NCBI GenBank assembly: GCA_017437165.1
Contig: JAFSBS010000378.1
Span: forward strand, 1-20,799
DNA: 20,799 nucleotides
Origin: Clostridia bacterium
GTDB lineage: Bacteria; Bacillota; Clostridia; Oscillospirales; Acutalibacteraceae
Reading direction: 5' to 3'
Each line of letters opens with the position of its first letter. Position 1 is the first letter of the stretch. The notes below the pieces were generated by a model that saw nothing but the letters and a program-made list of their open reading frames with translations, had not been told where the DNA came from and made no database searches. A program made the position numbers and the translations under genes. This document shows, one piece after another, positions 1,330-18,178 of the stretch.

Positions 1330-2066
1330 TGGATATACACGAATTAAAAGACTTTTTAGTCACATTTTTATTTCCTAATAGGTGTCGTTACTGCACTTGT
1401 GTTATAAAACACAACGAAGAAATTTGTCAGAAATGTGAAGATAATCTTCACGAAATAATTGGCGAAATTTGTTTTAAATGTGGGTACAGTAAAGATGATT
1501 GCATTTGCAAAAACCACAAATCATATTATGAAGCAATATCTTCCCCTCTTTATTATGAAGGTACTGCAAGTAATTCTATAAAACTCCTGAAATTCCGTAA
1601 AAAGACAGAAGTTGCTGAAATTCTGTCAGAACAAATGGCAAAATGTTACATTAACAATCTGTCTGAATATTCTGTAGATTTAGTAACATTTGTACCAATG
1701 CACAAGAAAAAGCAAAAAGAACGAGGATTTAACCAGGCAGAATTGCTTACGCGAAAAATGTGCGATATTTTAGAATTACCTTGCGAAGAATTGCTGTTTA
1801 AAACTTACGAAACCGATGAACAACATTTCCTTGACGAGAATTCAAGAAAAGGTAACTTGTTAGGAGTATTTTCAGCAAATCCTGAAATTGATATTCTTGA
1901 TAAAAGAATACTTCTTTGCGATGATATTAAAACAACCGGTGCCACTTTAGATGAGTGTGCAAAAACACTTTTAATTGCAGGGGCTTCAGATGTAATCTGC
2001 CTTACTTGTGCAATTGCTAAAAAGAAAAAATCAAACAACAAACAACAAAATGCGAAAACAAAATAA
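1329..2066 (+). CDS. comF: ComF family phosphoribosyltransferase-like protein
   Basis: ComF-type protein, required in naturally competent bacteria for handling incoming single-stranded DNA and working with helicases and primosome proteins. The N-terminus has a cysteine-rich, probably zinc-binding region: C19xxCxC24, C33xxC36, C48xxC51 and C58xC60. The C-terminal half is a type I phosphoribosyltransferase fold with the PRPP-binding motif ILLCDDIKTTGAT (194-206) and the family motif RGFNQAELL (132-140). The length, 245 residues, is typical. A lysine- and asparagine-rich tail ends the protein. The start ATG overlaps the helicase stop codon (TAATG), and AAAGG about ten bases upstream can serve as ribosome binding site. 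Pairing a RecD2-like helicase with ComF is a common clostridial arrangement. Enzyme activity of ComF proteins is unproven, so the role given is family knowledge. Confidence 0.9.
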   Translation: MDIHELKDFLVTFLFPNRCRYCTCVIKHNEEICQKCEDNLHEIIGEICFKCGYSKDDCICKNHKSYYEAISSPLYYEGTASNSIKLLKFRKKTEVAEILSEQMAKCYINNLSEYSVDLVTFVPMHKKKQKERGFNQAELLTRKMCDILELPCEELLFKTYETDEQHFLDENSRKGNLLGVFSANPEIDILDKRILLCDDIKTTGATLDECAKTLLIAGASDVICLTCAIAKKKKSNNKQQNAKTK

Positions 2067-2136
2067 AACAACTACTTCTTCATTTTTGATTGGTTATAAA
2101 ACCAAATTCAAACACGAAAAATGTAGTTGTTTTTTC
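2067..2136. terminator. Two-way terminator between convergent operons
   Basis: AACAACTAC (2067-2075) pairs with GTAGTTGTT (2123-2131), followed by a T run (2130-2136). On the other strand the stem is also followed by Ts. A small inner hairpin, TTGGTT (2090-2095) with AACCAA (2100-2105), sits in the loop. It lies between the comF stop and the end of the convergent LRR gene, so it probably ends both transcripts. Confidence 0.75.
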
Positions 2137-2165: not shown

Positions 2166-4661
2166 TCACTCTGATTCCTGAACTGCAGTTTTATATCTTT
2201 TTGCAAGATTTATAAGTTTAGAGTTTTTCGGAGTATAAATAACAAGTTCCTTATTACACTTTGAGAATTGCCAATATTCCTCTAAATCCGGTTCACCAAG
2301 AAATATTGCTTTTTTTAGATTTTTACAATGTGTAAATGCTTCACTTTCAATAAACTCCACCGATTCAGGAATTGTTATTTCATTTAAGTTTTCACAATAG
2401 CGGAATGCGGCGTAACCAATAAACGAAACCCCGTCAGGAATAGTTATTCTTTTAAGTTTATAACACCCCGAGAACGCATTTTCTTCAATTGTTTTTAAAG
2501 TTTTCGGCAAAGTAACACTTTCTATTTTATTCCCTTTAAAATCAAATGCAAATGGTGCAATACAAGTAACCCCTTCCGGAACTTCCGCATGGGTGCCGTT
2601 GCACAAATATCTGTAAAGCACTTTTCCAAAAACAATAATTTCCTCTTTATTGTTTTGAAGAAATTCCGTACCTTCAAAAACATTTCTTTTAACTCTTTCA
2701 AGTGTAGATGGAATTTTCACTTTTTTTAAATTTTTACAATTAGCAAAAGCCCAACCATCAACACTTATTACACTTTCAGGAATTACAACCTCTTCAATAA
2801 ACTCATTTGCTTCAAACGCACCGAAACTTATACTTTTAACACCATCCGGAATTATTACTTTTTTATCTTTCCCCCGATATTTATAAAGTGCTGAACCCGG
2901 AATTATAAAATCGTCTTTTAAAGAATCCAGCCACTCTGTTCCGAAAAACGCACTTTTTCCAACAGTTTCAATATTTTTTGAAATTGTCATATATTTAAGT
3001 TTTTCACAATCACAAAATGCCTGTTCACCAAGCTCGGTAACATTATCTGACATAACAACTTTTTTTAATTTCGAACAACCATAAAAAGCATTGCTTAATA
3101 TTTTTGTTACACCTGACGGAATAATTATTTCTTCAATTTCCCAACAACCACCAAAAGCCCATTCGCCCAAATACTCAAGTGAGTCAGGTAGTTTTATATT
3201 TTTCAACTTTGAAGACCATTTAAACGCTGCACAAGCAACCTCGGTTATTGTGTCAGGTAAATAAACATCTTCTAAATTTTCGCAATCGAAAAAAGCATAT
3301 TCACCTATACTTTTCATTCCTTCAGGCAAAATAACACTTTTAACTGTTTTATTCCCTGAAAAAGCCTTTGCAGAAACACCTGCAACTTGTCTTTTGCCAA
3401 TTCTACCCGGTATTACAACCGTTTCAAAATCAAGTTTACAACTCGTTATGTAAATTTCATCATTTTTCACTACAAATCCGAACTCACGTTTCCAATCTGC
3501 AAGAGTTTTCTCTTTAAGTCCAAAATCTTTTTCTATTCTGTCATTTTCTATAAGCGCTTGTTTTTTCGAAGAAAAATGTTTTGATTTATATTCAATTAAA
3601 AATGCACTTATAGCAACCACACTTTTACTTTTTTCTATATATTCATTAAGTTCATCAAATGAAATATCTTTAAACAGAGAAAAAAGTCTTTCTATAACTT
3701 CTGCATTATCATATTTAATTGCGTAGTCAATCACAAGTTTTTTATTTGCTTTTATTTTGGAAATTACACTTTTCTCCGTTTTAATAAAGTCAAAATATTG
3801 TGATAACAATGAATACATAATCACTGCCTTATTCGCTCTTTTTGAATACTCATTCCAGAACAACTCAAGTGTACTGCCACGAAATTTTTCAATTTTTCCG
3901 TAAAAAACAAATCTTTCTAAAGATTTACAACCACCAAAAACATCGTAACCTAAATTCACAAGACTTTGCGGTAAAAATATCTCTTTCAATTTTTCACAAT
4001 TATAAAACGCACTTTCTGAAATTTCGGTTACACCTTCCGGTATAACAATACTACTAAGTTTTCTGCAGCTACAGAAAGCATAATCTTTAATGATTTTCAC
4101 AGAATCAGGTATTGTTACAGCGGTAAGACCCGAGTTGTTAAAAGCACCCGCACTTATAACAGTAACCCCTTCGGGTATAATTACATCAGGTTTATTACCA
4201 TTGTATTTGTAAAGTATTGAATTTATTATAATAAACTCATCTTGGTTTTTCATTTCCCATTCGGTAGAAAAAAATACACGAAATCCTATTTCTTTAAGTT
4301 TTTCGGGAAATTTTATATTTTTCAATGCACCGCAACGATGAAACGCTCCTCTACCTATCACTTCTACATCGTCGGGTATTTCAATACTTTCAAGCGAAAA
4401 ACAGTTACTAAATGCACCTTCAGATATTGTTTTAAGCGTATCCGGAAGAAGCACGTGCTTCAAATTATCACAAAAAACAAATGCTTCAGTTTTTATAACG
4501 ATAACACCCTCGGGTATTATGACACTTTCAATAAATTGCTTATTTGAAAAGGCACGCTTACCTATAGCAGTTACACCCTCCGGTACAACCACATTTTTTG
4601 ATTTACCTTTATATCTTTTTAATACACCATTTTCAATTAAAAAATCTTTAGAATCAGCCAT
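2166..4661 (-). CDS. Large BspA-like leucine-rich repeat protein with central helical domain
   Basis: About 831 residues of LRR_5 (BspA-like) repeats with the pattern IxIPxxVxxIxxxAFxxC, split into two blocks by a helical domain. Residue numbers here count from an in-frame ATG at 4673. LRR block one is about 10-260, the helical domain about 265-400 (ending ADWKREFGF), and LRR block two about 415-790, followed by the usual BspA C-cap (TPKNSKL, LAKRY). A capping motif, DFxIxxxxLYxYxG then IPEGVxxIxxxAF, occurs four times, at about 10, 146, 588 and 677, so the protein is built from four modules. There is no signal peptide or membrane anchor, so it is probably cytoplasmic. I placed the start at the fifth methionine because GGAG (4668-4671) stands six bases before it, whereas the ATG at 4673 has no such site. 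It is the last gene of the VWA/MoxR operon, about 19 nt after the ATPase. Its helical domain is a clear paralogue of the one in the LRR protein at 6210-7298. The function is unknown; protein binding is the likely role. Confidence 0.85.
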   Translation of the reverse strand: MADSKDFLIENGVLKRYKGKSKNVVVPEGVTAIGKRAFSNKQFIESVIIPEGVIVIKTEAFVFCDNLKHVLLPDTLKTISEGAFSNCFSLESIEIPDDVEVIGRGAFHRCGALKNIKFPEKLKEIGFRVFFSTEWEMKNQDEFIIINSILYKYNGNKPDVIIPEGVTVISAGAFNNSGLTAVTIPDSVKIIKDYAFCSCRKLSSIVIPEGVTEISESAFYNCEKLKEIFLPQSLVNLGYDVFGGCKSLERFVFYGKIEKFRGSTLELFWNEYSKRANKAVIMYSLLSQYFDFIKTEKSVISKIKANKKLVIDYAIKYDNAEVIERLFSLFKDISFDELNEYIEKSKSVVAISAFLIEYKSKHFSSKKQALIENDRIEKDFGLKEKTLADWKREFGFVVKNDEIYITSCKLDFETVVIPGRIGKRQVAGVSAKAFSGNKTVKSVILPEGMKSIGEYAFFDCENLEDVYLPDTITEVACAAFKWSSKLKNIKLPDSLEYLGEWAFGGCWEIEEIIIPSGVTKILSNAFYGCSKLKKVVMSDNVTELGEQAFCDCEKLKYMTISKNIETVGKSAFFGTEWLDSLKDDFIIPGSALYKYRGKDKKVIIPDGVKSISFGAFEANEFIEEVVIPESVISVDGWAFANCKNLKKVKIPSTLERVKRNVFEGTEFLQNNKEEIIVFGKVLYRYLCNGTHAEVPEGVTCIAPFAFDFKGNKIESVTLPKTLKTIEENAFSGCYKLKRITIPDGVSFIGYAAFRYCENLNEITIPESVEFIESEAFTHCKNLKKAIFLGEPDLEEYWQFSKCNKELVIYTPKNSKLINLAKRYKTAVQESE

Positions 4662-4680
4662 TATAATCTCCATTTAAAAA

Positions 4681-6192
4681 TTACAAATCCAATTTTTCGA
4701 GTTCTGTTATAATTTCTTTTTGTCTTTCATAGAAAAGAAGTTCTTTGTTGTGGTCAAAATATTCTTTACAACCATAACGGCTTATAAAATGAGAACCATA
4801 GTAGCTTATGGTAAGCTCAGTTACGAGAATAAGCATTTCTTGTCCTTCGCCGAAAACTTCTTCACAGAACTTAAACACATTAGAAAGTTTTTCACCTGTA
4901 GAATCTGCTTTCTTTTTAAGTTCAGTTCTCTGATTATCAAAAAACTCTTTAATCAAAAGAAATGCTTTAGTGTTATCATGTGGTTCTTTTTCTGCAATTA
5001 CAGTCACAATCTCTTCCAAAGTAAAAATTGTAGAACGTAATTTCAGTTCATCTTCAGAAGAAAGACTTGAAGCAGATTTACCAACAGAAATCTGTTTCTC
5101 ATAGTTCGCAATTTGATTTCTCAAAACAGAATTCACTTCCGCATCAGGTTTTGAAAGGTTAATTTTAACTACTTTCAATGCGTTAAGAAGTTCTGTTAAT
5201 GAAAGTTCTTTACCACAGACTTCACGAAGTTCTACAGTTACTCCATCAAGTAAAAGACCAAGTAAACTGAAGCGCTCATCAAATTTCGCATTTTTAGCTC
5301 GTGCTTTTATTCCGTCGCCTGCTTTACCGTTAAGAATTGTATCAATCTGATAATCAGATTTATATTTATTAAATAAATCATAATAGTTAGCAAAGCTTTT
5401 TGCTATTTTTTTGTTCTGAATATACTGCGCAATAAATTTTTCTGTTACTTTAATGTCATTCTGCTCATAAAGGTGAATCATATCTGATAAATCTGACCAG
5501 CCACGAGCAGTAACAAAACTTTTGCCGTCAACCGTGGTTTCTATTTTATAGAAATCACTTTTTTTAATATCAAGATATGTAACAATTGAAGCGTGAACAC
5601 CTTTTTTATATGCATACTCTTTCCACACTTCAAAATCAGGTTCAACATCAATTCTTTTAAGCCTGTCCCACGTAACAATATCGAATTCACGAACAGAGTT
5701 GTTGTATTCAGGTGGGTTACCTGCAGTTACAACAATCCATCCGTCAGGTACTCTGTGTCTGCCGAAAATTTTGTATTGTAAAAACTGAAGCATTGCAGGT
5801 GCAAGGGTTTCAGAAACACAGTTTACTTCATCAAGAAAAAGAATGCCTTCATCTTTACCTGTTTTTTCAATCATATCGTAAACAGATGCAATAATTTCTG
5901 ACATTGTATATTCTGAAACGTCGTACTCTTTGCCACCATAAGTTTTTCTTTCTATAAACGGAAGACCGATAGCTGACTGCCTTGTGTGGTGAGTCATTGA
6001 GTAAGTAACAAGACTTACACCAAGCTCTGCAGCTACCTGCTCCATAATTGCAGTTTTACCAATACCCGGTGCACCCATTAAGAAAACAGGACGCTGACGC
6101 TCAATTGGTATAACATAATTACCAAATTTATCCTTTGTAAAATATGCCTTCATAGCATTCTGAATTTCAATTTTAGCTTCTTTGATGTTCAT
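4681..6192 (-). CDS. MoxR-type AAA+ ATPase
   Basis: AAA+ ATPase of the MoxR group (503 residues), enzymes that usually act with a VWA-domain partner to remodel or activate other proteins; RavA-ViaA, CoxD-CoxE and NorQ-NorD are known pairs. Visible motifs: Walker A GAPGIGKT (40-47), Walker B ILFLDEVN (117-124), the pre-sensor hairpin GRHRVPDGW (144-152) typical of MoxR, sensor 1 VVTAGNP (154-160), arginine-finger region WDRLKR (175-180), and a sensor 2-like TARGWSDL (228-235). The C-terminal half, about 250 residues, is a charged, helical extension I do not recognise and may bind partners. A textbook AGGAGGT site lies four bases before the ATG. It sits 17 nt after one LRR gene and about 19 nt before another, downstream of the VWA gene. 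All ATPase residues look intact. The family is secure; the substrate is unknown. Confidence 0.92.
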   Translation of the reverse strand: MNIKEAKIEIQNAMKAYFTKDKFGNYVIPIERQRPVFLMGAPGIGKTAIMEQVAAELGVSLVTYSMTHHTRQSAIGLPFIERKTYGGKEYDVSEYTMSEIIASVYDMIEKTGKDEGILFLDEVNCVSETLAPAMLQFLQYKIFGRHRVPDGWIVVTAGNPPEYNNSVREFDIVTWDRLKRIDVEPDFEVWKEYAYKKGVHASIVTYLDIKKSDFYKIETTVDGKSFVTARGWSDLSDMIHLYEQNDIKVTEKFIAQYIQNKKIAKSFANYYDLFNKYKSDYQIDTILNGKAGDGIKARAKNAKFDERFSLLGLLLDGVTVELREVCGKELSLTELLNALKVVKINLSKPDAEVNSVLRNQIANYEKQISVGKSASSLSSEDELKLRSTIFTLEEIVTVIAEKEPHDNTKAFLLIKEFFDNQRTELKKKADSTGEKLSNVFKFCEEVFGEGQEMLILVTELTISYYGSHFISRYGCKEYFDHNKELLFYERQKEIITELEKLDL

Positions 6193-6209
6193 TGTTAACC
6201 TCCTGAAAT

Positions 6210-7298
6210 TTATTTTTCTATTGGAATATTATGTTTCTTTGCATATTGCTCTATATAACCATTTCCTTCACTATGAAAAGTGAGAAGAGTACACCCTAAA
6301 AATGCATCTTCTGCTATTTTATTTATAGTTACCGGTAATGTAATGTGTTCTAATTTTTTTCGGCTTATTTTTTCTTTATCTGTCAGACGCTGTGCGTATG
6401 CCGAAAAAGCTTTTTCTGAAATTCCGGTAACTACATATTTACCAATTTTTTCAGGAACCTCTACTACACTTTCCAACGACTTATATTTGGTTATTACAGC
6501 AGTTGAGTTTTTAGTGTAAAAGCCAAAAATCTTTTTCCAGTCAGAAATATTCCTTTCTTTTATCCCTAACATTTTTTCTGTTTCAGTTGCCCAGAAATAT
6601 TCTTGGTCTGCAACAGAATATTTTGAATTCTTGTATTCCAGAAGAAACGAAAGAACAGAAACCGATTTATCCGCATCATTTATAAAAGCGTCTAATTCAT
6701 CCAACTGAATTTTTTTATAAAGCGAAAACAAGTTTTTTACAATTTCTGCATCATCAAGTTCAATGGCAAATTTTACTATATTTTTCTTGCTCACTTTAAT
6801 TTTTCTTTTTAATTCCGTTTCTTCTTTTACAAAATGGAAATACTGCTTCAGAAATGAACACTTAATTGCTACTGCGTGTTCTGTTCCGGTAAAATAGTCC
6901 CATATCACTTTTAATGAACTGAATTTAAAACTTGTAATATTTTCCGGTAAAATTATATGTTTTAATCTTTTACAATCAGTAAATGCATTTAAACATATCA
7001 ACCTTAAATCGTATGGAAGCACCACTTTTTCTAAACTAAAACAACCATTAAAACACGAATAATTTATTGTTTTAACCTTATTTGGTAAATTTATCTCCTT
7101 AAGGTTTGTGCAATTACAGAAGGCAAGCACTCCAATTTCTGTCACAGTTTCAGGCAAAGTAACTGATTCAATACTTACGCAGTTATAAAACGCATCTTCA
7201 CGAATACAGGTTACACCCTGCGGAACAACGATATTTTCATCATTTCCCCTGTAGCACATAACCTTATTATTTATAATTACTAAATCTTTATCGCTCAC
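6210..7298 (-). CDS. Small BspA-like LRR protein with helical domain
   Basis: A 362-residue protein with LRR_5 repeats at about 1-125, a helical, ankyrin-like domain at about 128-260, then a degenerate LRR stretch and the BspA-type C-cap (GYIEQYAKKHNIPI). The helical domain matches that of the larger LRR protein in this operon: FSLYKKIQLDELDAFI against FSLFKDISFDELNEYI, FLLEYKNSKYS against FLIEYKSKHFS, and SDWKKIFGF against ADWKREFGF. There is no signal peptide. The start codon is GTG, six bases after the VWA stop codon and in the same reading frame as the VWA gene. The only ribosome-binding candidate, GATGAG, is weak and lies about 12 bases away inside the VWA gene, so translation probably depends on reinitiation after the VWA stop. 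The function is unknown; as a partner of the VWA/MoxR pair, it may select targets. Confidence 0.82.
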   Translation of the reverse strand: MSDKDLVIINNKVMCYRGNDENIVVPQGVTCIREDAFYNCVSIESVTLPETVTEIGVLAFCNCTNLKEINLPNKVKTINYSCFNGCFSLEKVVLPYDLRLICLNAFTDCKRLKHIILPENITSFKFSSLKVIWDYFTGTEHAVAIKCSFLKQYFHFVKEETELKRKIKVSKKNIVKFAIELDDAEIVKNLFSLYKKIQLDELDAFINDADKSVSVLSFLLEYKNSKYSVADQEYFWATETEKMLGIKERNISDWKKIFGFYTKNSTAVITKYKSLESVVEVPEKIGKYVVTGISEKAFSAYAQRLTDKEKISRKKLEHITLPVTINKIAEDAFLGCTLLTFHSEGNGYIEQYAKKHNIPIEK

Positions 7299-7304
7299 AG
7301 TAAT

Positions 7305-8696
7305 TTATATCTCATCTTTCTGTAAAACTAATTTTATTGCCCATGGTGGTACATCCGGATTGTTGTATTCATCATCAATAAAAACAAATGCAGTATCGTA
7401 GTCAGGTTTTTGTTTCGGAAACTCGCCATATCCGTCAGTAAAGTAAATAAGCCCTTTAAGGTTTGTAAACTCCTTATTCACAATAAGTTGATTTACTTTA
7501 TCGAACACCGGTCTGAAATCTGTACCACCAAGACCTTTGATTTTCATAGTCTTTAAATAATCATCAAATTCCTCTTGTGTAGTTATTTTAACGTGTTCCT
7601 GAATCTCGGCATCGCATTGAATAATGTGAAGATTTATTCTACTGAAAAAACTTTCAGTACTTTTAAGTACATTATAAGTCTTCTGCACAAATGTCTGAAC
7701 CAAATCACCCGAAGTAGAACCTGAAGTATCAATTGCAATAACAAACTCTCTGATTTTTTTAACATCTTTATACTCAAGCGGTTCAACAAGTGGCAGATTT
7801 TCGTAAAGTTTTAAACCGTATGTATAAAAGATATAGTCAAATTCATCATCATTGACTTTCATTGTTTCCCCTAACACAGCAAACTTTCTTAAAAATGCGG
7901 TATAGTCGTATTTTTCACGATTAACTTCTTTTAGATTTTGCATAAGTCCGCCCGCTTTATCACCTTGTTCTTTCGAAAAGGTTTCAAGATCCGTCAGCAT
8001 TCTTTCAGAAATCTCTTGCCACATCTTGTCAAGTTCACTTCTTTTGCTCCCCTGACTATTACTTACGCTTTTATCTTCATTACCATCGCTTCTCTCAGGA
8101 TTGTCAGAGTCATTGTCATTATAAATAGGTGCTAAGCCAAATTTTTCTTCAATCTCGCCATCAGTCATATACCATACTTCGTGATTATCAGCATAAAAAT
8201 ACCCACGAAGCTCTGCCGCTTCAAGTTCACTTAAGTTTTCTTTAATATAATTATAAATCTTTTCAGCGGTAAGAATTTTTACTTCTGATTTAATCTTGCC
8301 CAGTTTTGCCTGTTGCATTTTTGCTCTTTTGCTATCCACCTGCTTTAAATAAAGGTCGTTTATAACATTTTCAACCGCTATATCACACGCTAAATCCCAC
8401 AAAGGTCTGTTGAGTGTAGGATTCATAAACATATGTCTGAAAACACAATGCATAACAATATGTAAGTAATCTCTTACCGGAGCTTCACTCTCATCCTTAT
8501 AGCTTTTTAACACATGTTGTGGATTAAACAGTAAAAACTCTCCATTTGTAAGGTAAGTTGATTCATTACACGTAAAATACTGAAAACGACTCAAAGCCAT
8601 ATCGAGAAATCTCAGATTTACCAAAAGCGTATTTCTCGAAAGGTTGATAACATCAAGCGCCAACTTGTCCAGTTTTTCTTTATAATCCTGTTCCAT
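7305..8696 (-). CDS. DUF2201-type VWA protein with degenerate peptidase-like N-terminus
   Basis: A 463-residue protein of the putative metallopeptidase/VWA family (COG3864, DUF2201). The N-terminal domain has the family pattern, HIVMH (79-83) with a further H88 and W100...LACDIAVEN, but the glutamate expected in HExxH is isoleucine here, so hydrolysis is unlikely. The middle (about 190-225) is an acidic and serine-rich linker. The C-terminal VWA domain has a complete metal site: D323-x-S325-x-S327, GGTDF with T392, and FTDGYG with D421. It is the first gene of the operon, with GGGAG nine bases before the ATG. VWA proteins of this kind work with MoxR ATPases, and one is encoded two genes downstream. 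It is cytoplasmic by sequence. It may act as the metal-dependent adaptor of the complex; that is inference. Confidence 0.87.
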   Translation of the reverse strand: MEQDYKEKLDKLALDVINLSRNTLLVNLRFLDMALSRFQYFTCNESTYLTNGEFLLFNPQHVLKSYKDESEAPVRDYLHIVMHCVFRHMFMNPTLNRPLWDLACDIAVENVINDLYLKQVDSKRAKMQQAKLGKIKSEVKILTAEKIYNYIKENLSELEAAELRGYFYADNHEVWYMTDGEIEEKFGLAPIYNDNDSDNPERSDGNEDKSVSNSQGSKRSELDKMWQEISERMLTDLETFSKEQGDKAGGLMQNLKEVNREKYDYTAFLRKFAVLGETMKVNDDEFDYIFYTYGLKLYENLPLVEPLEYKDVKKIREFVIAIDTSGSTSGDLVQTFVQKTYNVLKSTESFFSRINLHIIQCDAEIQEHVKITTQEEFDDYLKTMKIKGLGGTDFRPVFDKVNQLIVNKEFTNLKGLIYFTDGYGEFPKQKPDYDTAFVFIDDEYNNPDVPPWAIKLVLQKDEI

Positions 8697-14084: not shown

Positions 14085-14384
14085 TTATTTTGGTAATGTA
14101 TATTCTGTAATTTTGCTATCGGGAAAATTTTCATCACAATATTTTCTCATTTTTTCTATTCCCTTTATATTGTTACTGTGAATATTTATTTCAGGTACAA
14201 AAACATCATGCTCTTTCATCCATATAAGAATATCAAGACCTGTTTTTCTATCTTTACCTAAACTATAATCTAAAGAAATATGCTCAAACTTCATAACTGA
14301 CAAAAGTGTGATTGCTGTATTTGCATCTCTGCAACACTGATAACCATTAGGAAATTCTCTTGTATCATCAACAAATAATCTCAC
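14085..14384 (-). CDS. Cyclic-phosphate processing receiver-like (cREC) protein
   Basis: A 99-residue single-domain protein resembling the cyclic-phosphate processing receiver domain. It has acidic residues in RLFVDDTRE near the N-terminus, HISLDYSLG with the central Asp39, and a serine-containing EINIHSNN where response regulators have Thr/Ser. I chose the GTG at 14384 because AAAGGAG stands eight bases before it. The GTG three codons upstream sits on top of that site. Related domains have been proposed to act on cyclic phosphates of RNA or nucleotides; that role is not proven here. It leads an operon with a GPH-type transporter and a basic coiled-coil protein. Related receiver folds without a kinase could give the same pattern, so the name is moderately sure. 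Confidence 0.7.
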   Translation of the reverse strand: MRLFVDDTREFPNGYQCCRDANTAITLLSVMKFEHISLDYSLGKDRKTGLDILIWMKEHDVFVPEINIHSNNIKGIEKMRKYCDENFPDSKITEYTLPK

Positions 14385-14416
14385 ATAAAGCACTCCTTTA
14401 TTTCAGATATAATTCA

Positions 14417-16866: not shown

Positions 16867-17565
16867 ATGAACAAAATAGAACTATTTCATGGTTCAGACC
16901 ATATAATAGAAATTCCAGATATAACTAAAGGGAATCCTAAAAATGACTACGGGAAAGGGTTTTATTGCACTCGTATTCCTGAAATGTCAAAAGAATGGGC
17001 TTGTAAGCAAAATAGTAATGGTTTCAGTAATAAATATGAATTAGACCTTACTGATTTGCGAATACTTGATTTAACAGATGATCGTCACACCGTTCTCAAC
17101 TGGATTGCAATTTTACTTGAACACAGAACGCTTTCTCTGGACTCTGAAATTGCAATTGATGCAAAAGATTATATAGTAGAACATTTTTCTATAGATACTT
17201 CTCAATATGATGTCATTGTAGGGTACCGTGCAGATGATTCATATTTCAGATATGCAGAAAGCTTTGTAGAAAACAGTTTATCTTTACGGAGTTTAAATAA
17301 GGCTTTGCACCTTGGCAAACTTGGTGAACAAACAGTTCTTGTTTCAGAGAAAGCATATAGCCAAATCCATTTTATAGATGCTGAGCCTGTAGATAAAACC
17401 ATCTATTATCCAAAATTTATTTCTCGCGATACCAAAGCTCGTGAAGCATATAAAGCTGACATTAAAAAGACTAAATCTTATCGTAACGATATATTCGTAA
17501 TGGACATACTCAGAGAGGAGATAAAAAACAATGACCCACGCATACAGCAAATCATATCTGAGTAA
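16867..17565 (+). CDS. DUF3990-like toxin with ADP-ribosyltransferase-type fold
   Basis: A 232-residue protein of the DUF3990 type, which resembles the ADP-ribosyltransferase fold. Visible family motifs: LFHGSD (6-11), the basic/glycine segment YGKGFYCT (28-35), and the late LGEQTVLVSEKAYSQI (152-167), where the catalytic Gln/Glu would lie. About 50 charged residues follow the core. The ATG follows AGGAG at eight bases. The second gene overlaps its end by 35 bases and encodes an HTH protein, which gives the gene order toxin-antitoxin. It is cytoplasmic. Known DUF3990 proteins are found mainly in clostridia beside HTH or DUF3791 partners; NAD-dependent modification of a cellular target is expected but not shown. 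Confidence 0.82.
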   Translation: MNKIELFHGSDHIIEIPDITKGNPKNDYGKGFYCTRIPEMSKEWACKQNSNGFSNKYELDLTDLRILDLTDDRHTVLNWIAILLEHRTLSLDSEIAIDAKDYIVEHFSIDTSQYDVIVGYRADDSYFRYAESFVENSLSLRSLNKALHLGKLGEQTVLVSEKAYSQIHFIDAEPVDKTIYYPKFISRDTKAREAYKADIKKTKSYRNDIFVMDILREEIKNNDPRIQQIISE

Positions 17566-18178
17566 CGCTAAAATCAGACTTGCTCAATTTTTTGATTATG
17601 CTATAAACGATTGTGGATTTAAAAGTGACTGGATAACAAACCTGTTTATTATATCGGGATACGCTGAACAGTTTGAACGCGGTAATCCTTCGGTGCTTTC
17701 AGGGTTATCAGGTATTGAACTGGCATATGAAGTTATAAATAAAATTTACCCCGAAAAGAAATTACCTGAGCCAAATTTCGCTAAAGACAAATCACCTGAA
17801 TACTGGGCAGGTTGGGCATTGGCAGAATACCAATGGTACACAGGAAAAAGATTTAAGGATATTTTTGAATACGCTCCATTATCTAAAATTATATCTATGT
17901 ATTCGATTTATCACGAAATGGATATTTCACAATTTATAGAAGCTATCAACAAATTTTATAGTGAATCAAATGCTGATACTAAACTGAAACGCATAAGAGA
18001 AAGTCGTGGACTTTCGCAATCTGAACTGGCACTTCATTCTGGCGTGAACTTACGATCTATTCAGATGTATGAACAAAAGGCAAATGATATCGATAAAGCT
18101 CAAGCACAGACATTATATAAATTATCGAGGATTTTAGGTTGCGATATAGAAGACTTGCTTGAGAATCCTATGGATTAA
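17531..18178 (+). CDS. HTH antitoxin of the DUF3990 module
   Basis: A 215-residue protein with an N-terminal helical domain (about 10-140) and a C-terminal lambda-repressor-type HTH (about 152-210: LKRIRESRGLSQSELA, then VNLRSIQMYEQK). The N-terminal part has signatures seen in clostridial DUF3990 partners: ISGYAEQFERGNPS, GLSGIELAYEV and SPEYWAGWALAEYQWYTG. It probably binds and neutralises the toxin, while the HTH binds the paired operators. The start overlaps the toxin gene by 35 bases, with GAGGAG ten bases before the ATG. This order (toxin first) is less common than antitoxin first. The antitoxin role is inferred from position and domains. Confidence 0.8.
   Translation: MTHAYSKSYLSNAKIRLAQFFDYAINDCGFKSDWITNLFIISGYAEQFERGNPSVLSGLSGIELAYEVINKIYPEKKLPEPNFAKDKSPEYWAGWALAEYQWYTGKRFKDIFEYAPLSKIISMYSIYHEMDISQFIEAINKFYSESNADTKLKRIRESRGLSQSELALHSGVNLRSIQMYEQKANDIDKAQAQTLYKLSRILGCDIEDLLENPMD

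Follow-up and report, generated by a model that had tools for sequence, protein, structure and literature searches.

A MoxR-VWA operon with leucine-rich-repeat proteins, conserved in shuffled order across gut Clostridia

To our knowledge, machines built from a MoxR-type ATPase and a von Willebrand factor A (VWA) protein are widespread, and it is not known how most of them choose their targets. In this report, we describe such a pair encoded together with two leucine-rich-repeat (LRR) proteins on a contig of 20,799 nucleotides from a member of the Clostridia (Acutalibacteraceae; assembly GCA_017437165.1, contig JAFSBS010000378.1); the whole contig is hereafter called the window. Two kinds of described system are closest. 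For NorQD, two reports describe a finger of the VWA protein that enters the MoxR pore, with ATP-driven movement that twists a linker and remodels the target (PMC13036017, PMC9976466). For MoxR-vWA ternary conflict systems, two sources describe a MoxR ATPase, a vWA protein and a variable third component that is thought to recognise something, in classes named VMAP, iSTAND, FtsH, beta-propeller, iSTAND2 and TERNS3 (eLife 2020, PMC7159879; PMC8195603). According to the first source, the beta-propeller class lacks a conventional effector, and the P-loop GXXXTAKS is frequent, not universal, in the beta-propeller and FtsH classes (PMC7159879).

The operon in the window lies on the minus strand and reads, from 5' to 3', VWA, LRRa, MoxR ATPase and LRRb. 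The VWA gene (7305-8696) codes for 463 aa, with a degenerate metallopeptidase-like DUF2201_N domain and a DUF2201 VWA domain. LRRa (6210-7298; 362 aa, GTG start) has LRR_5 repeats (7274-6921) followed by a helical domain, the MoxR-type AAA+ ATPase (4681-6192; 503 aa) matches AAA_5/AAA, and LRRb (2166-4673; 835 aa) has a single helical domain set among six LRR_5 stretches. These Pfam assignments agree with an earlier reading made from the letters of the window (the sequence-only reading), which had named a DUF2201-type VWA protein, a MoxR ATPase and two LRR proteins, and the positions of the open reading frames (ORFs) bear out its four-gene operon on one strand. The gaps are 6 nt between VWA and LRRa, 17 nt between LRRa and MoxR, whose ATG is preceded by aggagg, and 7 nt between MoxR and the first ATG of LRRb. 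Because ggag precedes the second ATG at 4661, LRRb probably starts there and has 831 aa, and the gap of about 19 nt given by the sequence-only reading is probably right.

LRR genes adjoin such pairs in far more than one genome. A scan of named genomes with a MoxR alignment found at least 220 relatives, of which the best 80 were kept. By title, their hosts are mostly Clostridia, with three Coriobacteriia and one metagenome-assembled genome labelled Muribaculaceae; named species with the module include Caproiciproducens galactitolivorans, Butyrivibrio proteoclasticus and Senegalimassilia anaerobia. The ORFs of all loci were annotated with hidden Markov models (HMMs) built in this analysis, including an LRR model and a model of the helical ('HEL') domain. 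In 73 of the 80 named loci, a gene that matches either or both models (hereafter, the partner) is found no more than 5 kb from MoxR; the LRR model alone, which gives the less circular count, finds one in 69. A VWA gene lies anywhere in the locus in 74. Where named loci have wide flanks, the partner is present in 51 of 57 and the VWA gene in 56 of 57. The family-level and own-genome loci have a partner in 21 of 25 cases.

To avoid the bias of the best 80, 47 MoxR loci outside the earlier sets were drawn at order and class level. The partner is present in 36 and a VWA gene in 42 of these; when divided by MoxR score, loci above 600 bits have a partner in 36 of 42 cases, and loci with a divergent or truncated MoxR in none of five. 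Three phylum-level loci with 1.5-kb flanks include one partner (L310). MoxR relatives occur in 22 of 300 genomes sampled in the family, 27 of 295 in the order and 24 of 391 in the class, and, at a stricter limit, in 7 of 398 in the phylum; these draws overlap, and all contain the window's own genome. Locus sets also share contigs (at least L058/L090, L069/L136 and L249/L111). Two side observations concern loci of unusual content: L222 carries a MoxR-VWA pair with five LRR genes and one further helical-domain gene, and L073 and L074 carry a MoxR of this family, with VWA and LRR genes not in view, next to a gene that resembles Hsp33 by eye.

Such adjacency might be trivial, if LRR_5 genes are so common in gut Clostridia that they lie beside the pair by chance or by old synteny. 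LRR_5 proteins are indeed encoded on ten further contigs of the source genome, but just one of ten such ORFs (some of them partial) matches the helical HMM. At 105 named, family and own loci, the 285.8 kb that lie more than 6 kb from MoxR and serve as background hold a single LRR ORF. These counts contradict the neutral explanation, as does the survival of the linkage through repeated changes in gene order, and we regard it as highly improbable.

Gene order was mapped on a tree of 101 MoxR proteins. The partner follows the pair (VML) in 36 cases, precedes it (LVM) in 30, stands between its genes (VLM) in 13 and occupies several places in 5; 9 of the loci have no VWA gene in view, and 8 have no partner. 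The order labels require 14, 12 and 10 changes on this tree, which was made by a quick method and has support below 80 on 39 of 98 inner branches; if only the well-supported branches are counted, no fewer than 8, 6 and 5 are still needed. Repeated relocation with the linkage kept is the strongest argument that these genes are a working unit.

Further copies exist in the source genome and in a relative. The source assembly (1.93 Mb in 457 contigs, 81% complete) carries a second VWA-LRR-MoxR operon (L005, C20:3244-7320), whose MoxR is 53% identical to that of the window over residues 1-347, and one genus-mate genome carries both LRR operons (L057, L079). With a second operon in the same genome and the linkage kept in relatives, the four-gene arrangement is not due to chance. 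For a third MoxR-VWA pair of the source genome (L006, contig C143, 2-2348, minus strand), no LRR gene is in view; the contig breaks off within its VWA gene. Separately, an LRR-helical protein is encoded at L039 1129-2037 (minus strand) on a 3.2-kb contig of the source genome, with no MoxR or VWA gene noticed in the 2.3 kb examined.

The partners share a conserved part. The helical domain of LRRa spans residues 158-230 (6609-6827, minus strand) by hhalign and by our own HMM, and that of LRRb residues 299-371 (3561-3779, minus strand) by our own HMM alone, hhalign having covered only LRRa. Alignment of LRRa with the core partner family by hhalign, which is independent of the HEL HMM, gave a probability of 99.8 and spanned both the LRR and the helical domain. 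With the HEL HMM, the independent E-value (7 sequences searched before iteration, window rows in the model after it) went from 6e-4 to 2.9e-12 for LRRa and from 6e-3 to 7.3e-13 for LRRb. In the predicted structure of the LRR protein, the helical domain is C-terminal, conserved and confidently folded, with a predicted local distance difference test (pLDDT) score of about 97-98. Pfam reports only LRR_5, LRR_8 and FNIP repeats in the LRR proteins of the window, and only DUF4132, DUF6273 or Ank besides LRR in 10 scanned partners of relatives. Four such partners (L085 4461-6911, L091 4142-5500, L087 6492-7997 and L082 9553-11199) match the HEL HMM and carry DUF4132, DUF6273 or ankyrin repeats, with little or no LRR score.

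These proteins diverge quickly. Over 936 pairs of loci with similar MoxR, mean identity falls from 57% in MoxR to 48% in VWA and 31% in the best-matching partner, which is less identical than VWA in every one of the 936 pairs; the pairs are not independent. For example, the window and L090 are 74% identical in MoxR and 69% in VWA, but 37% in the partner. Among 98 partners, length ranges from 219 to 915 aa.

Characterised MoxR-VWA pairs are often encoded beside the gene for their client, such as nitric oxide reductase or rubisco. The LRR proteins could by analogy be dedicated substrates that the pair folds, assembles or activates, rather than selectors, and apart from the two genes of the pair, the LRR gene alone is linked in most loci. 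A client would, however, have to be the fastest-evolving part of the system and to vary widely in length, and the HEL HMM still recognises those partners that carry DUF4132, DUF6273 or Ank and have little or no LRR score. Because of the latter, a constant dock with a variable head looks likelier, and we consider the client explanation improbable.

A comparison of near-identical operons suggests one route of divergence. Between the window and L057, the proteins are 99.6% (VWA), 99.8% (MoxR) and 99.3% (LRRb) identical, whereas LRRa is 89.5% identical. Its gene differs from L057 7767-8855 at 107 of 1089 nt, in two blocks, and the other three genes differ at 16, 14 and 14 positions. LRRa looks like a divergent allele, acquired by exchange, in operons that are otherwise nearly identical.

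The VWA protein combines an intact VWA domain with a metallopeptidase-like domain that appears to be nearly dead. HExxH is the catalytic zincin motif of such peptidases. In the window, the motif is H79-I-V-M-H83 (8448-8462, minus strand), in which the catalytic Glu is absent. We examined 134 VWA sequences (133 distinct), and the denominators given here are the proteins that cover each site. All 127 proteins retain H79, H83 and H88, all 128 retain D105, and 123 of 128 retain E109; the residue after H79 is other than Glu in 126 of 127. By contrast, HExxH is intact in 22 of 23 VWA proteins encoded next to distant MoxR genes of viral contigs. Because more distant pairs with no partner in view (L006, with the motif HQVLH, L243 and L268) also are without Glu, its loss probably predates the LRR partnership. 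A domain that has nearly always lost its catalytic residue and kept its histidines, while relatives on viral contigs retain the Glu, is of interest in itself.

The VWA domain (7323-7742, minus strand, by Pfam) has an intact metal ion-dependent adhesion site (MIDAS; D323, S325, S327, T392 and D421). The first D, both S and the T are conserved in 133 of 133 proteins, and the last D in 132 of 132. The domain ends at residue 458 of 463, and no effector domain follows. Immediately before it, residues 275-313 (7758-7874, minus strand) are rich in invariant residues and largely of low confidence in the single-chain model, with segments of pLDDT below 50. They are a candidate interface or pore-insertion element that may fold on a partner. 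A PDB sequence search with the VWA profile returned nothing useful.

The MoxR protein has a Walker A motif at 6075-6052 and a Walker B motif, LFLDE, at 5841-5827 (both minus strand); both are conserved columns in the MoxR alignment. The Pfam model bpMoxR scores 23.4 bits against a cut-off of 27, and many close relatives carry a precomputed PF20030 label. A PDB sequence search with MoxR gave short AAA+ P-loop matches only, and an NCBIfam scan of the operon proteins gave nothing specific.

From the genes, domains, motifs, conserved linkage and faster evolution of the LRR proteins, we infer a complex, its internal contacts, a remodelling activity and the nature of its targets. The explanation that we favor, and hold to be rather likely, is that MoxR and VWA form a remodelling machine together with a third, LRR-helical component, by which the target is selected. 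By analogy with NorQD, MoxR would form an AAA+ ring that acts as motor, and the VWA protein would be a non-catalytic plug and adaptor that couples the ring to targets. The LRR-helical protein would be a dedicated, cytoplasmic third subunit whose helical domain docks to the VWA/MoxR core and whose variable LRR face chooses which protein is remodelled. In the lineage of the window, this subunit may have been duplicated and lengthened, as LRRa and LRRb, and exchange of LRRa alleles could widen the range of targets. The sequence-only reading had proposed cytoplasmic LRR proteins as a recognition layer. This part of it fits the N-termini of LRRa and LRRb, in which we found by eye (no dedicated predictor was used) no hydrophobic segment of a signal peptide, and it fits the fast evolution, the differing numbers of LRR genes and the exchange of the LRRa allele.

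Several observations weigh against the favored machine. Partners from these same loci and, after iteration, the window's own rows served to train the HEL HMM, so counts that depend on it are partly circular. Partners are missing at 7 of 80 named loci (L099, L101, L103, L121, L126, L127 and L157), at four family and own loci (L068, L073, L074 and L076), and at 6 of 42 order/class loci with MoxR above 600 bits. Because some of these loci (L068, L121 and L127) have wide flanks, the partner may not be essential, or its gene may lie elsewhere. Any kinship between the helical domain and ankyrin repeats is weak. No candidate target gene recurs in most loci. One VWA protein (L115, 5839-7140) is the sole keeper of HExxH among the 127, as HEIFH, and its locus has an LRR partner. 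In the LRRa comparison, silent sites are raised too: the proportions of differing nonsynonymous and synonymous sites, pN and pS, are 0.059 and 0.257, and pS is 0.02-0.05 in the other three genes; this points to an exchanged allele, not to selection on single residues. That comparison rests on one genome pair, in which mis-assembly is possible.

A more specific explanation is immunity or conflict, with LRR proteins that sense an invader (a phage or rival protein) and a MoxR-VWA core that triggers a response. It shares with the published ternary systems the logic of MoxR, vWA and a fast-evolving third recognition component (PMC7159879, PMC8195603). The patchy presence in sampled genomes at the family, order and class levels would fit, as would variation in the number and length of LRR proteins (five genes in L222) and the swap of LRRa alleles between near-identical genomes. 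Against it, no effector domain follows the VWA domain of the window, and the ten scanned partners contain, besides LRR, only the three families named above. PADLOC gave no specific match: for MoxR, weak partial ATPase matches only, the best to IetA (22.6 bits over residues 6-63); for VWA and LRRa, nothing; and for LRRb, one hit (E 0.086). We consider a conflict role doubtful.

Genomic context was examined for the same purpose by clustering flanking ORFs of at least 100 aa. A defence-island setting was tried and rejected, since most loci show no fourth partner, and no recurrent defence neighbour was noticed by eye. Two clusters are the largest, at 14 and 13 loci; by eye they resemble an ABC-transporter ATPase and a MATE transporter, with 1 of 17 and 4 of 14 of their members, respectively, no more than 1.5 kb from MoxR. 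The tightest cluster, a protein of about 409 aa, occurs at 6 loci; its gene is on the same strand in all of them and no more than 1.5 kb from MoxR in 4. Fused forms that join LRR or HEL to VWA or MoxR were not found at these loci; the long VWA frame of L101 resembles a GC-rich open frame and not such a fusion.

Carriage by mobile elements was also sought. A plasmid search gave no match. IMG/VR lists at least 38 MoxR relatives (L269-L306), all at most 29% identical; 19 of the 38 have a VWA gene and none has an LRR or HEL gene, so that no close copy on viral contigs is present among the matches listed. These viral-contig pairs of MoxR and a metallopeptidase-VWA protein with HExxH kept merit a study of their own. 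Matches also came from eight GenBank records titled 'Bacteriophage sp.'; identity is 42-51% in seven of them and 27% in the eighth. Phage carriage was rejected for the three of the eight that were inspected (L307-L309; MT835935.1, MT836813.1 and MT837836.1), which bear an UNVERIFIED flag and read by eye as bacterial contigs with the module; L307 has a folC-like gene and an aminotransferase gene, and L308 has rpsF, ssb and rpsR-like genes.

The sequence-only reading had gone on to suggest a surveillance, conflict or protein-quality system. The idea of a system gains from the conserved linkage in shuffled order, and its purpose remains conjecture, given the PADLOC result, the absence of a defence neighbour and the lack of a close viral-contig copy among the matches listed. 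The boldest form that we entertain, and think quite doubtful, is that gut Clostridia and Coriobacteriia possess an intracellular surveillance machine resembling an NLR split over three genes. In it, a MoxR ring and an ex-metallopeptidase VWA adaptor would be joined by expandable, cytoplasmic LRR-helical sensors, whose LRR faces, diversifying partly by allele swaps, would recognise different foreign or damaged proteins.

Directly after LRRb (2060-2130, minus strand), inspection by eye showed an inverted repeat with imperfect arms (acaactac ... gtagttgt) and, behind it, a T-rich stretch; this may mark the operon end, but a terminator scan did not report it. A promoter scan found 19 promoter-like sites in place of 27.3 expected, and an Rfam search found no match. 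Upstream, an aminotransferase gene lies 122 nt away on the same strand; downstream, a convergent gene is presumably ComF. In the genus-mate G251 (L220), ComF has different neighbours and the operon is not beside it; because the genus-mates are too far apart (47-50% identity in ComF), an insertion at this site cannot be called. Elsewhere in the window, a DUF3990 gene overlaps a gene with a C-terminal HTH_3 domain (16867-18178, plus strand) in an arrangement that resembles a toxin-antitoxin-type pair, and 14085-14393 (minus strand) codes for a small cyclic-phosphate processing receiver-like protein (cREC_REC).

With its adjacent genes, Walker motifs and intact VWA MIDAS, the locus has the features of a MoxR-VWA pair in general. 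NorQ/NorD and CbbQ/CbbO likewise join a MoxR ring to a VWA adaptor with a MIDAS, and the VWA-in-pore arrangement is the best template for the module (PMC13036017, PMC9976466). Those systems differ from the present one in the extra LRR subunit found here, and no nor or rubisco genes are among the other window genes examined by Pfam. The N-terminal domain of NorD and CbbO also belongs to another family. RavA/ViaA is similar in that a MoxR ATPase has a VWA partner, but with the ViaA equivalog model, whose cut-off is 500 bits, the score is 13.1 bits, and we know of no LRR partner in that system. In E. coli, MoxR loci of the YehL/YehP/MolR type include DUF4132, which also occurs here in 2 of 10 scanned partners (L085 and L091, both among the HEL HMM matches). 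LRR_5 repeats are shared with BspA-type surface proteins, and TpLRR and gut LRR proteins are among the nearest solved structures; in contrast to BspA-type proteins, the partners here have no signal peptide by eye, a helical C-terminal domain and membership in a MoxR-VWA operon.

The ternary conflict systems are similar in that their operons join a MoxR ATPase to a vWA protein and a variable third component. Here, however, that component is LRR_5 with a helical domain, the vWA protein has a degenerate metallopeptidase-like domain at its N-terminus and no effector at its C-terminus, and the hosts are mainly Clostridia, with three Coriobacteriia. The P-loop also is ordinary, GAPGIGKT in the window and G[PA]PG[IV]GKT in 21 aligned sequences, and not the GXXXTAKS of the beta-propeller and FtsH classes. 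Pfam shows no VMAP, iSTAND, FtsH, beta-propeller or TERNS3 third component at this locus, its coverage of each class being unchecked. An LRR third component of a MoxR-VWA pair was not found in the open-licence literature searched, which is not proof of absence, as subscription papers and preprints are largely outside that search. The finding matters in that a diversifying, apparently dedicated LRR subunit is tied to a MoxR-VWA pair across gut Clostridia, and because it is so tied, target selection by a MoxR machine becomes directly testable.

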